Position numbers and translations under genes: made by a program
DNA from: an uncultured Saprospiraceae bacterium
GTDB lineage: Bacteria; Bacteroidota; Bacteroidia; Chitinophagales; Saprospiraceae
DNA length: 64,000 nucleotides
Direction of reading: 5' to 3'
Assembly (NCBI GenBank): GCA_938045585.1
Contig: CALIAU010000001.1
Coordinates: 124,001-188,000, forward strand
The notes under the pieces: generated by a model
Told to the model about the DNA's origin: nothing
The model's database searches: none
The model's input: only the letters and a program-made list of their open reading frames with translations
Shown here: positions 468-47,550 of the stretch, one piece after another
Layout of the letters: each line of letters opens with the position of its first letter
Numbering within the stretch: the stretch's first letter is position 1

Positions 468-929
468 ATGGAAGTGTATCGCATTGCAGCAGAGAAATTT
501 GCTAATAATTTATTTGCTTCTGGAAGACCTGCACGTTGGAATGCTAAAAATCAATTTGTTCTCTATACAGGAAGTTCGCGATCTCTTTGCGCCCTAGAAT
601 TACTTGTCCGGCGGGCAGCAATCAAAACTAAGATTCCTTACAAGATCATGTGCATAGAACTTAGTATTACAAAGAAACAGATCCAGCAAATACGATTAGA
701 GGATCTAGGTAATAATTGGAGGACTACAGGTGCCTACGCAGACCTGCGAAAACGTGGTTCGGATTGGTATCTACGTGCAGATAAAATGGTACTCAGTGTG
801 CCCTCAGCTGTGATTCCACAAGAGCAAAATTATATTATTAATACCCAACATAGAGACTATAGTAAGGCAGCTAAACTTATTAAGGCTGAAGAGTTCCTTT
901 GGGACGAACGATTATTACTTAATGATTAA
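468..929 (+). CDS. RES-domain toxin (NAD+-degrading)
   Basis: A 153-residue RES-domain protein, a usual length for the family. RES toxins degrade NAD+ and arrest growth when not bound by their Xre partner. Active-site residues seen are R23 in the ARWN motif, Y33 in VLYTG, E44 in CALE and S113 in the VPSAVIP segment; the spacings R-Y of 10 and Y-E of 11 agree with what I recall for the characterised family. The typical C-terminal block N-Y-I-I-N-x-x-H-x-D-Y follows. The ATG lies 5 bases after the antitoxin stop with AAGG just before it, so the pair is translationally linked. The reading frame is intact and no key residue is lost, so the toxin is probably functional. Confidence 0.88.
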   Translation: MEVYRIAAEKFANNLFASGRPARWNAKNQFVLYTGSSRSLCALELLVRRAAIKTKIPYKIMCIELSITKKQIQQIRLEDLGNNWRTTGAYADLRKRGSDWYLRADKMVLSVPSAVIPQEQNYIINTQHRDYSKAAKLIKAEEFLWDERLLLND

Positions 930-44980: not shown

Positions 44981-45709
44981 CTAGTCAAGTTCTAAAATAT
45001 CTCTATTAGGCTGGTCTAGTAGTTCTACCCATTTAGTCCACTTGTGATCATGTGTTTCTTCAAACATATTCGTTTTTAAAATGGATAGGAATGATTCCTT
45101 AGGGATAGTCTGGGCACCCATGCTGAGTATATGATTTGTTTCTTGCTGGCAGTCTATCAATGTAAAATCTTTTTGAACGAGTATTTTACATAGGCTTATG
45201 AGTCCAAATTTTGAGGCGTTCGCTTTAAGGGCGAACATAGATTCCCCATAAAATATCTTACCAATTGCAATGCCATACAAACCACCTACTAAGGAGTCGC
45301 CCTCCCAAACTTCAACGGAGTGCGCATATCCGCGGGTGTGCAATTCTTCTAGAGACTCTATGAGTTCCTTAGTCAACCAAGTATCATATTGTCCCTGTCT
45401 TGGAATATTTTTGCAGGCATATAATACTTCAGAAAAAGCAGTATCTAAGCTTACTGTAAATTTGTTTTGATTGAAATAGGAGCGCATGCTCTTTGAGATT
45501 TTTATCTCCTGAGGTTTCAATACGCAGCGCGGGTTTGTAAAATACCAATAAATAGGATTGCCTTCAGAATACCAAGGAAAGATTCCAAATTGGTAGGCCA
45601 TTAACATTCGTTCTGGATTTAGATCATTGCATATGGCTAGGAAGCCTGTCTCGTCAGCAAGGTAGGGATGTGGAAATGCATTGATATGGCTAGAAACAAA
45701 AAAAGGCAT
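44981..45709 (-). CDS. aat: leucyl/phenylalanyl-tRNA-protein transferase
   Basis: A 242-residue enzyme that adds Leu or Phe to N-terminal Lys/Arg, making N-degrons for ClpS. Family motifs: Y-Q-x-G-I-F-P-W-Y (about 39-47), P-R-C-V-L, and G-G-L-Y-G-I-A-I-G-K-I-F-Y-G-E-S-M-F (about 146-163). The ATG at 45709 is the only start before the conserved A-F-P block, with length like E. coli Aat. That start codon is in the 3' arm of an intrinsic-terminator-like hairpin placed 22 bases after the clpS stop. clpS lies directly upstream on the same strand. Confidence 0.95.
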   Translation of the reverse strand: MPFFVSSHINAFPHPYLADETGFLAICNDLNPERMLMAYQFGIFPWYSEGNPIYWYFTNPRCVLKPQEIKISKSMRSYFNQNKFTVSLDTAFSEVLYACKNIPRQGQYDTWLTKELIESLEELHTRGYAHSVEVWEGDSLVGGLYGIAIGKIFYGESMFALKANASKFGLISLCKILVQKDFTLIDCQQETNHILSMGAQTIPKESFLSILKTNMFEETHDHKWTKWVELLDQPNRDILELD

Positions 45710-45727
45710 AACGTCTGTTATGCCTTT
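45702..45727 (-). terminator. terminator-like hairpin covering the aat start codon
   Basis: On the minus strand AAAGGCATAA, loop CAGACG, and TTATGCCTTT form a perfect 10-bp stem, extended by four more Ts and a G. The ATG of aat (45709-45707) sits in the 3' arm and the T-tract encodes its first Phe residues. It begins 22 bases after clpS. It may both terminate the clpS message and block aat translation. Confidence 0.75.
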
Positions 45728-45748
45728 AAACTAAATAATATTTTTTGA

Positions 45749-46054
45749 TTAATCCTCAACTAAGGTCTCTATCACTGCAGATAGTCCTCTGTCAATCAGT
45801 TCATCTTTCATTTTTTTCAGTTCTTGAACAGAACCACATTTTACAGAAGCTTTGCCTTTGAAGTGAACAATCAGTGATAATTGTTCAGCTTGTTCATAAC
45901 TATGATTGCATACCTCTATAAAACACTGTATAACCCAATCGAAGGTATTGAAGTCATCGTTAAATACAATTAACTGTGCTGTCTGATTACCTACATGAAT
46001 CTCTTCCTCTAGAAGAAGTTCATTTGAGTCAAGGATGGTAGATAGTTTACTCAT
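45749..46054 (-). CDS. clpS: ATP-dependent Clp protease adaptor ClpS
   Basis: A 101-residue adaptor delivering N-degron proteins to ClpA-type unfoldases. The family core is V-F-N-D-D-F-N-T-F-D-W-V (about 31-42), with the N-degron-binding D and the hydrophobic pocket, and a histidine in V-H-F-K-G-K-A (about 64-70). The N-terminal extension is short. It lies upstream of aat, whose product makes the substrates. A peroxiredoxin gene precedes it by 29 bases on the same strand. Confidence 0.93.
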   Translation of the reverse strand: MSKLSTILDSNELLLEEEIHVGNQTAQLIVFNDDFNTFDWVIQCFIEVCNHSYEQAEQLSLIVHFKGKASVKCGSVQELKKMKDELIDRGLSAVIETLVED

Positions 46055-46083
46055 TTCTAAAATTTACAAGGTGTTTTAAAATA

Positions 46084-46551
46084 TCAAATTTGAGCTAATG
46101 CCTCTTTGATGGCGGTAAAGTTCGGTAATTCTCCTGCATTTTCCAAGATTTCTTCATATCTAACTTTGCCGTCTTTGTCAATAATAAAGGCAGCCCTTTT
46201 AGAGACGCCCTTCATATCTAATACAAAAGTCTCATATAAGGTTCCGTAAGAACGACAAACATCTTTGTTAAAGTCTGATAAGAGCGGGAAATCGTATTTC
46301 TGTTCTGCCTTGAATTTTTCCAAACTAAAGAGAGAATCTACAGAAATAGCAAGTACATCGACGTCTAAGTCTTTGTAAAATTTAGCGTCATCTCTGATCC
46401 CGCAGAGTTCGTCCGTACAAACAGAGGTAAAGGCTAGAGGGAAAAATAAGAGAAGCACCTTCCTGCCTGAATAATCAGTTAAGCTCACTTCTTTTTTTTC
46501 AGTATCCCTTAACGTAAAATTTGGGGCTTTGTCTCCCTTAGATAGTACCAT
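46084..46551 (-). CDS. peroxiredoxin (AhpC/TSA family, BCP/AhpE-like)
   Basis: A 155-residue thiol peroxidase that reduces H2O2 or organic peroxides. The peroxidatic Cys is C45 in F-T-S-V-C-T-D-E-L-C, and a second Cys, C50, is placed as the resolving Cys of E. coli BCP. The fold elements F-F-P-L-A-F and the arginine-containing segment near 123 are present. It is the first gene of the Prx-clpS-aat run on the minus strand. Confidence 0.9.
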   Translation of the reverse strand: MVLSKGDKAPNFTLRDTEKKEVSLTDYSGRKVLLLFFPLAFTSVCTDELCGIRDDAKFYKDLDVDVLAISVDSLFSLEKFKAEQKYDFPLLSDFNKDVCRSYGTLYETFVLDMKGVSKRAAFIIDKDGKVRYEEILENAGELPNFTAIKEALAQI

Positions 46552-46617
46552 ATTTGCTTTTTAATTCGACTTAAAAGTAAGATAAAAATTAGTTTAGGCA
46601 ATGATTTTATTCTAACT

Positions 46618-47550
46618 ATGCAAAATACTTATCACAGTTCCGTGTCCTTATATAAACAATCCGACAAATTTTTGGCATATGCACAGTTGCATTTCTCTGT
46701 ATTCCTATGGGGATTTACTGCAATATTAGGGGAATTGATAGAAATGCCAGCAGTGATTCTAGTGTGGTGGCGGGTCCTCATAACAGTGCTTAGTTTGTTT
46801 TTTTTACTGCAATATTCTAAAACATTTAGCACGGATTTAAAGCATCGCAAAGTGTATTTTTTGATCGGCGTTTGTATAGCGATTCATTGGATTTGTTTTT
46901 ATGGTTCTATTAAATATGCAAATGCATCCATTGCCTTAATTTGTATGGCAACGAGTTCGTTTTTTACCTCACTTATTGAACCAGTTGTGGTTTCAAAACG
47001 ATTTTCGATAAAAGAAATCGTGTTTGGTTTGCTGGTCTTACCGGGTATGTATTTTGTAGTAGACAGTACAGAGCTTGCCATGCAAAAGGGAATATGGGTT
47101 GGTCTTGCCGCCTCTTTTCTGGCTGCCTTATTTACATCTTATAATAAGAAATACATTGTAGAGGGTAAAGAAATGGAAATATCCTATGTAGAACTATTGG
47201 GTGCACTCGCATTCCTTACACTCCTAATGCCCATCCTCATTATACAAACAGATATTTCTCTTTTACCATCCGCTATGGATAGCTTTTATCTCATAATCTT
47301 AGCATTATTGTGTACAACCCTTCCCTTTGTACTGTCTATGAAAGCCTTAAATCAACTCTCAGCATTCAGCTCTACGCTTATTGTCAATCTAGAGCCTGTG
47401 TATGGGATAGCTCTGGCAGCCTTGTTACTGGGGCAGCATAAGGAACTTGATCCCCGCTTTTATCTTGGCGTTATACTCATTCTGACTGTTGTACTTATAT
47501 TTCCATTAGTATCTTCGCGTAATAAACAGGAAGTAGATGTTGCTAAATAA
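46618..47550 (+). CDS. EamA-family (DMT) transporter
   Basis: A 310-residue inner-membrane protein with ten predicted helices made of two five-helix EamA repeats, the first ending near S-I-K-Y-A-N-A-S (about 99-106) and the second near L-E-P-V-Y-G (about 261-266). The drug/metabolite transporter family exports amino acids or other small metabolites; the substrate here is unknown. It is followed after one base by the O-methyltransferase gene and is probably co-transcribed with it. Confidence 0.88.
   Translation: MQNTYHSSVSLYKQSDKFLAYAQLHFSVFLWGFTAILGELIEMPAVILVWWRVLITVLSLFFLLQYSKTFSTDLKHRKVYFLIGVCIAIHWICFYGSIKYANASIALICMATSSFFTSLIEPVVVSKRFSIKEIVFGLLVLPGMYFVVDSTELAMQKGIWVGLAASFLAALFTSYNKKYIVEGKEMEISYVELLGALAFLTLLMPILIIQTDISLLPSAMDSFYLIILALLCTTLPFVLSMKALNQLSAFSSTLIVNLEPVYGIALAALLLGQHKELDPRFYLGVILILTVVLIFPLVSSRNKQEVDVAK

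Follow-up and report, generated by a model that had tools for sequence, protein, structure and literature searches.

Terminators and translation start sites are usually viewed as separate parts of a transcript. At the junction of clpS, which encodes the N-degron reader, with aat, which encodes the N-degron writer, in a Saprospiraceae bacterium, one hairpin is read here as terminator, start codon and coding sequence. A likeness exists at frdD-ampC of Escherichia coli, where the terminator of one operon is the attenuator of the next gene; the difference is that the ampC start codon lies downstream of the hairpin and that ampC has its own promoter in frdD.

The repC attenuator of pT181, as set out in passages of PMC5435934, comes near in another respect, because the 3′ half of its terminator holds the AGGAG ribosome binding site of repC and one fold acts on both transcription and translation, as proposed here for clpS/aat. 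In the same passages, however, what is hidden is the ribosome binding site, 12 nt ahead of the start codon, and the choice between two folds is made by an antisense RNA (PMC5435934), whereas at clpS/aat the start codon itself is hidden and no alternative fold was found. In addition, the hairpin follows an upstream gene and the first aat codons form its 3′ arm and T tract, whereas that of pT181 lies in a leader. Since no antiterminator shared by both genomes was found, the clpS/aat hairpin is not classed as pT181-like. Intra-operon terminators with partial read-through share the stem, the T tract and the position near the upstream stop codon (PMC4824070 for the dependence on distance from the stop), and in them the level of the downstream gene is set by read-through. 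The downstream start codon normally lies outside such a terminator, whereas that of aat lies inside. The vmlR leader of Bacillus subtilis, in the sections of PMC9226507 that describe it, likewise couples attenuation with a hairpin by which the start region is concealed on transcripts that read through, but it uses two hairpins (the SL-3 terminator and the Shine-Dalgarno-sequestering SL-4) and an antibiotic-sensing uORF; at clpS/aat there is one hairpin and no sensor was found. Among the papers listed, judged by title or the opening of the abstract, we found neither an intrinsic terminator that encloses the start codon of the next gene nor the clpS-aat junction of this phylum.

As read from the sequence, the stop signal of clpS and the start signal of aat are the same few bases, both in the genome studied and in its congener. 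The arrangement illustrates the degree of gene packing that is possible when a phylum does not use Shine-Dalgarno signals, offers a compact natural test case for the trade-off between termination, read-through and start accessibility, and is relevant to the way in which bacteria adjust the amount of the writer Aat to that of the reader ClpS. The reading that we favour, with somewhat better than even confidence, is that the hairpin is the intrinsic terminator of clpS, that aat begins inside it, and that it would act as a fixed two-step brake on aat.

A terminator-like hairpin around the aat start codon

The window (the whole 64-kb stretch of DNA analysed) comes from the draft genome (4.3 Mb, 44 contigs) of a member of the Saprospiraceae. 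The features around the junction are as follows.

46618-47550, plus strand: ORF whose start partly overlaps the bcp upstream region (ORF search)
46551-46084, minus strand: bcp, peroxiredoxin (AhpC-TSA) (ORF and Pfam search)
45749-46054, minus strand: clpS, ClpS adaptor (N-degron reader), 101 aa (ORF; PF02617, E 7.5e-17)
45728-45748, minus strand: A/T-rich leader from the clpS stop codon to the stem, 21 nt (sequence and congener comparison)
45717-45727, minus strand: 5′ arm AAAGGCATAAC, non-coding (stem search)
45713-45716, minus strand: loop AGAC (stem search)
45702-45712, minus strand: 3′ arm GTTATGCCTTT, holding the aat ATG (45709-45707) and the Pro2 codon (stem search)
45698-45704, minus strand: T7 tract, encoding Phe3 and Phe4 of Aat (sequence)
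44981-45709, minus strand: aat, leucyl/phenylalanyl-tRNA--protein transferase (N-degron writer), 242 aa (ORF; PF03588, E 1.8e-67)
44930-43659, minus strand: M16 peptidase gene (ORF and Pfam search)

The hairpin, AAAGGCATAAC-AGAC-GTTATGCCTTT followed by TTTTGTTTCT, occupies positions 45727-45702 of the minus strand, or 45727-45698 with the T run, and has 11 perfect pairs, four of them G-C, a loop of 4 nt and then T7 (-13.6 kcal/mol). The first-pass annotation had described a perfect 10-bp stem with a T tract, beginning 22 bases after the clpS stop codon; its position and T tract hold, and the stem measures 11 bp. The same annotation had correctly placed the aat ATG inside the 3′ arm and the first Phe codons in the T tract, where the run 45704-45698 comprises the last base of the Pro codon and two Phe codons. 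Termination would be expected just 3′ of this tract. A perfect stem of at least 10 bp with a loop of 3-8 nt and a T6 run at its end occurs only once in the window, both strands included, and stems of that class were not found in 50 dinucleotide shuffles, again on both strands. The fold of the 131-nt region around the hairpin is only mildly unusual (z -1.86).

In the features that can be tested on sequence, namely a stable, short-loop stem directly before a T-rich tract and placed shortly after clpS, the hairpin is of intrinsic-terminator form, in an unusual place, and it probably ends the clpS message. The earlier proposal of a clpS terminator is thus supported for form, for position and for the habit of the family of placing a terminator after clpS.

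The start codon of aat is well supported, since the PF03588 match covers Aat residues 32-203 and all 171 of the 171 profile positions, so that the domain is complete, since neither the open frame upstream nor the first 20 codons contain another in-frame ATG, GTG or TTG, and since M-P-x-F/Y is the commonest Aat N-terminus among the loci compared. The congener uses the same ATG. A different start of Aat, which the first-pass annotation had named as a finding that would count against it, was sought in the sequence and did not appear. The Phe3 codon, which extends the T tract, was considered as a sign of selection for that tract and rejected, because it is also present in relatives without a terminator (L063 and L099, and with Ala2 L004, L055 and L151).

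Conservation of the hairpin in a congener

Conservation was assessed between the window genome and its congener, the only other genome of the genus that was available (G001; locus L002). Aat is 74% identical between the two and ClpS 93%, and the third codon positions of clpS are 52% identical. The hairpin arms are identical throughout (5′ arm 11/11, 3′ arm 11/11, 22/22 in total), whereas the loop is identical at 1/4 positions and measures 3 nt in the congener. The leader from the clpS stop codon to the stem is 86% identical and 20 nt long there. That the arms are kept while the loop and the third positions diverge favours selection acting on the hairpin, but the arms would equally be kept if clpS simply required a terminator. 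Only two genomes carry the overlap, and with the same stem in both they show no covariation; the compensatory changes at the junction that the first-pass annotation had proposed to look for in relatives are accordingly absent from the congener.

Over whole gaps, the identity to the congener is 0.85 for clpS-aat, 0.72 for bcp-clpS and 0.28 for aat-M16. The value for clpS-aat is not far above that of bcp-clpS or of the region upstream of bcp (0.80), which counts against the proposed brake. The latter region (window positions 46552-46651) is 80% identical to the congener, more than the bcp-clpS and aat-M16 gaps.

Terminator form on the contigs and in the family

Two contigs, C1 (403 kb, 311 ORFs) and C2 (240 kb scanned, 197 ORFs), were searched with longest-ORF starts from a simple caller. 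C1 carries 38 hairpins with a T-rich tail after ORF stop codons, and 25 of these 38, the clpS hairpin included, lie 13-45 nt past the stop. With 29 of the 38 lower in energy and one other equal, the clpS hairpin (-13.6 kcal/mol) is among the weaker ones, a further point against the brake. The pattern GGCAT-N3-28-ATGCC-T6 was found in 203/298 family genomes, with few matches for a reversed-pattern control, and the stem is therefore a generic terminator form of the family. Across 33 sites of this pattern at 30 loci, a count in which the aat site of the congener is not included though the pattern matches there, only the ATG of aat opens a long ORF within the site (242 aa; the next is 67 aa).

The only other longest-ORF start of C1 inside a terminator-like hairpin is that of a CHAT/TPR gene outside the window, where a strong hairpin of -24 kcal/mol at 287940-287982 (G000, minus strand) lies 1 nt after the stop codon of a subtilase-like gene and inside the longest ORF of the CHAT/TPR gene (gene kinds judged by eye). 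It was rejected as a second case of a start within a terminator on C1 because a better ATG, with a signal peptide and likely to be the true start, is located just downstream. On C2, four ORFs have a terminator-like hairpin near the start. In one of them (L211, ~529-569, plus strand), a 467-aa ORF, the ATG falls within the loop of a 12-bp hairpin whose T tail is weak; its N-terminus is signal-peptide-like and no other start occurs within 150 nt. In two others a TTG lies within the hairpin and an ATG follows downstream of it; the hairpin of the fourth ORF comes after the start. An Rfam search of 45400-46700 gave only a sub-threshold match to DapZ (22.7 bits against a threshold of 56); this identity was rejected and the match taken as generic terminator resemblance.

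clpS-aat layouts among relatives

The aat gene is present in 276/298 family genomes, and the junctions compared are a subset of these. From 192 aat loci (L001-L132 and L151-L210), 41 belonged to other families or were distant, which left 151, a few of them from records not labelled Saprospiraceae. After removal of 33 loci without clpS in the piece, 15 duplicates, three with clpS 441-665 nt away and one without a start codon, 99 distinct loci with clpS directly before aat remained. Their aat starts were chosen by rule, and a few are doubtful (e.g. L037, L051 and L171).

A terminator between clpS and aat was called in 34/99 of these loci. Where the gap is at most 20 nt (36/99), the count is 0/36, partly by construction since such a gap hardly fits a terminator. 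The 23 loci with a gap of 21-60 nt include three with a terminator (the window genome, the congener and L059), and for gaps above 60 nt the proportion is 31/40. With 36 tight pairs, 34 loci with a terminator and 29/99 with a longer gap that lacks one, the family has no fixed layout rule; the overlap is a rare fourth layout beside the tight pair, the terminator-split pair and the longer gap without a terminator. On a quick tree of the 99 rows, the three layout states need 31 changes against a shuffled mean of 47, so that by this measure the layout is clustered but labile. The genus of the window falls within a mixed group of 18 rows, weakly supported (SH-aLRT 84), together with the terminator-bearing L011 and L059 and several tight pairs.

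The end of the stem ranges from 195 nt upstream of aat to 8 nt inside it over the 34 terminator loci, lies 12-28 nt upstream in 16/34 and at least 6 nt before aat in 32/34; the start is inside the stem only in the window genome and the one congener. The spacer from clpS to the stem, 21 nt in the window, is 19-26 nt in 15/34. At L059 (G094), 6 nt separate the end of the terminator AGAGGCATTGATCGTTCAATGCCTCT-TTTTTT from the ATG of aat, and among the layouts without overlap none came closer. At L066 (G193), a hairpin of -14.4 kcal/mol with a T-rich tail spans the clpS stop codon and the aat ATG. It begins before the stop and ends 10 nt inside aat, and it stands outside the terminator count because the filter excludes hairpins that begin before the clpS stop; L053, the tree neighbour of L066, is without it. 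At L003 (G020), the GTG that starts aat belongs to the 3′ arm of a hairpin with a bulge, GCACATATTAGTTGACTGAATAACTAATGTGC, which has no T tract; this locus is a start mask without a terminator.

Predicted pairing of the aat start codon

When clpS, the junction and the first 60 nt of aat were folded together, the inner pairs of the stem had a probability of ~1 in both genomes, and in a 100-nt fold the probability that the AUG is unpaired was 0.00. The start window of aat (-30 to +20) ranks fifth in energy among the 99 loci (z -5.0), with the congener sixth (z -6.3). Among 256 start windows on C1 only one is more stable than that of aat, and it probably belongs to a wrongly assigned start. On C2, 2/154 start windows come near (-13.4 and -13.0, against -14.1 for aat). 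The probability of an unpaired start also rounds to 0.00 at L195, L003, L054 and L028 and is 0.01 at L197 among the 99 loci, and none of these five has a terminator call.

In Flavobacterium johnsoniae, translation is lowered by structure near the start codon, and the phylum Bacteroidota is without Shine-Dalgarno signals, as stated in the parts of PMC6847099 that bear on this. Given this effect and the pairing of the AUG in the folds, masking of the aat AUG by the hairpin is likely, though not unique among the loci. The masking of aat initiation proposed in the first-pass annotation thus agrees with the modelled pairing of the AUG, from which a lowered level of Aat would follow.

A proposed two-step brake and its alternatives

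In the proposed brake, polymerase leaving clpS would form the hairpin and mostly stop in the T7 tract, that is, in the Phe codons of aat. On the RNA that is read through, the hairpin would form again and pair the AUG, and initiation would fall, in a phylum without help from Shine-Dalgarno signals. A possible side effect is that futile initiation would be avoided on terminated clpS mRNAs, whose AUG has no stop codon. The setting of the brake is probably constant, with little Aat relative to ClpS, rather than that of a sensor. Most likely, the overlap arose from a terminator and an aat start that are at least 6 nt apart in the other terminator loci; the sequence that encodes M-P-F-F, ATGCCTTTTTTT, in itself resembles a 3′ arm with a T tract. 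The anatomy of the hairpin, its rarity, the family habit of a terminator at this place and its conservation in the congener are observed; from them we infer that transcripts end there in vivo, that aat mRNA is supplied by read-through, that the level of Aat is lower and that there is any benefit.

A plain clpS terminator with an accidental overlap is an unlikely but serious contender. The gap would have shrunk in a compact genome until the aat start fell into the stem; termination would serve clpS, the masking of aat would have no selected role, and enough Aat would be made anyway. This fits the generic form of the terminator in the family, the lability of the layout, with its 31 changes on the quick tree, and the mere 12-28 nt that separate the stem end from aat in 16/34 terminator loci. 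It fits less well with the persistence of the overlap and of both arms in two genomes that differ widely at third codon positions, although a mere requirement for a terminator would account for the arms. Improbable, by our estimate, is that aat has its own promoter and that its transcript starts inside or after the 5′ arm (a leader of at most 12 nt), in which case the hairpin would never mask the AUG since the mRNA would be without most of that arm. An AT-rich block ahead of the stem, ATATTATTTAG, which the congener shares, is in line with such a promoter, as is a weak match there in the window, TTG-N18-TTATTTAG (7/9). Flavobacterium psychrophilum, according to the sections of PMC9723704 on promoters and leaders, has a median 5′ leader of 24 nt and carries the -7 box TAnnTTTG at -12 to -5, and both the leader length and the box position would suit this reading. 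Nevertheless, the best match within 150 nt is 7/9 in the window and 6/9 in the congener, where the TTG is lost, and in a scan of low power it is no better than in 370 shuffles (best 7 in 226, best 8 in 71).

We give very little credence to the hairpin being mainly a translational or stability element of a clpS-aat mRNA and no terminator. Hairpins that pair the start do occur at aat without a clpS terminator, as at L003, with no T tract, and at L066, where the hairpin spans the clpS stop; the perfect stem, the T7 tract, the A residues before the stem and the distance of 21 nt past the stop are nonetheless those of the terminators of this genome. That Aat starts elsewhere or that the gene is non-functional, which would turn the overlap into an annotation effect, is scarcely credible in view of the complete Pfam domain, the want of any in-frame alternative start and the ATG shared with the congener.

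Possible translation coupling and searches for regulatory sequences

In the first-pass annotation, Aat production was also suggested to depend on translation-coupled unfolding. The sections of PMC4824070 that deal with E. coli report that termination is weakened when a terminator is close to a translated stop codon, amounts to ~0.12 or 0.8, depending on sequence, at 17-18 nt from the stop, and is maximal beyond ~27-30 nt. In the model fitted there for E. coli, ribosomes within 27 nt of the stem hinder termination. According to the same paper, hairpin folding needs no more than 10-15 nt of free RNA beyond the ribosome, and a terminator located within the first 100 bp of a coding region can be efficient in that organism (PMC4824070). 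When this E. coli geometry is applied to a Bacteroidota ribosome, the 21-nt spacer after clpS is below 27 nt and above 10-15 nt. Because it is below the E. coli limit, read-through aided by the translation of clpS is possible by analogy. Conversely, a ribosome at the clpS stop codon is unlikely to open the AUG on finished RNA, since 10-15 nt of free RNA are enough for folding. A strict form, in which read-through needs a ribosome finishing clpS and Aat is made only when clpS translation is closely behind RNA polymerase, strikes us as quite improbable. If it were true, the output of the N-degron writer would be proportional to the synthesis of its reader, and one hairpin would be the terminator of the reader, the start codon of the writer and the first codons of the writer. 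The tie between degron writer and degron reader, as a regulatory link, is speculation.

An antiterminator fold that opens the hairpin was considered and rejected, as the 450 nt upstream held no pairing partner of either arm that the two genomes have in common. A stretch ~390 nt upstream of the stem, containing GAGGCATTAGC, at the 3′ end of bcp, could pair with the aat start (-14.7 kcal/mol); the congener has no counterpart there (its best is -9.2, elsewhere), and the pairing is probably due to chance. The promoter scan (TTG-N17-23-TAnnTTTG) separated real from shuffled sequences poorly, with a best match of 8/9 in 31/74 divergent starts and 71/370 shuffles. Within clpS, ~236-238 nt before the aat ATG, TTG-N19-TACATTTG matches 9/9 in the congener (L002) and 8/9 in the window. 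A promoter inside clpS, as these promoter-like matches may suggest, would be a point against the proposed brake, although both matches lie in conserved codons and upstream of the hairpin.
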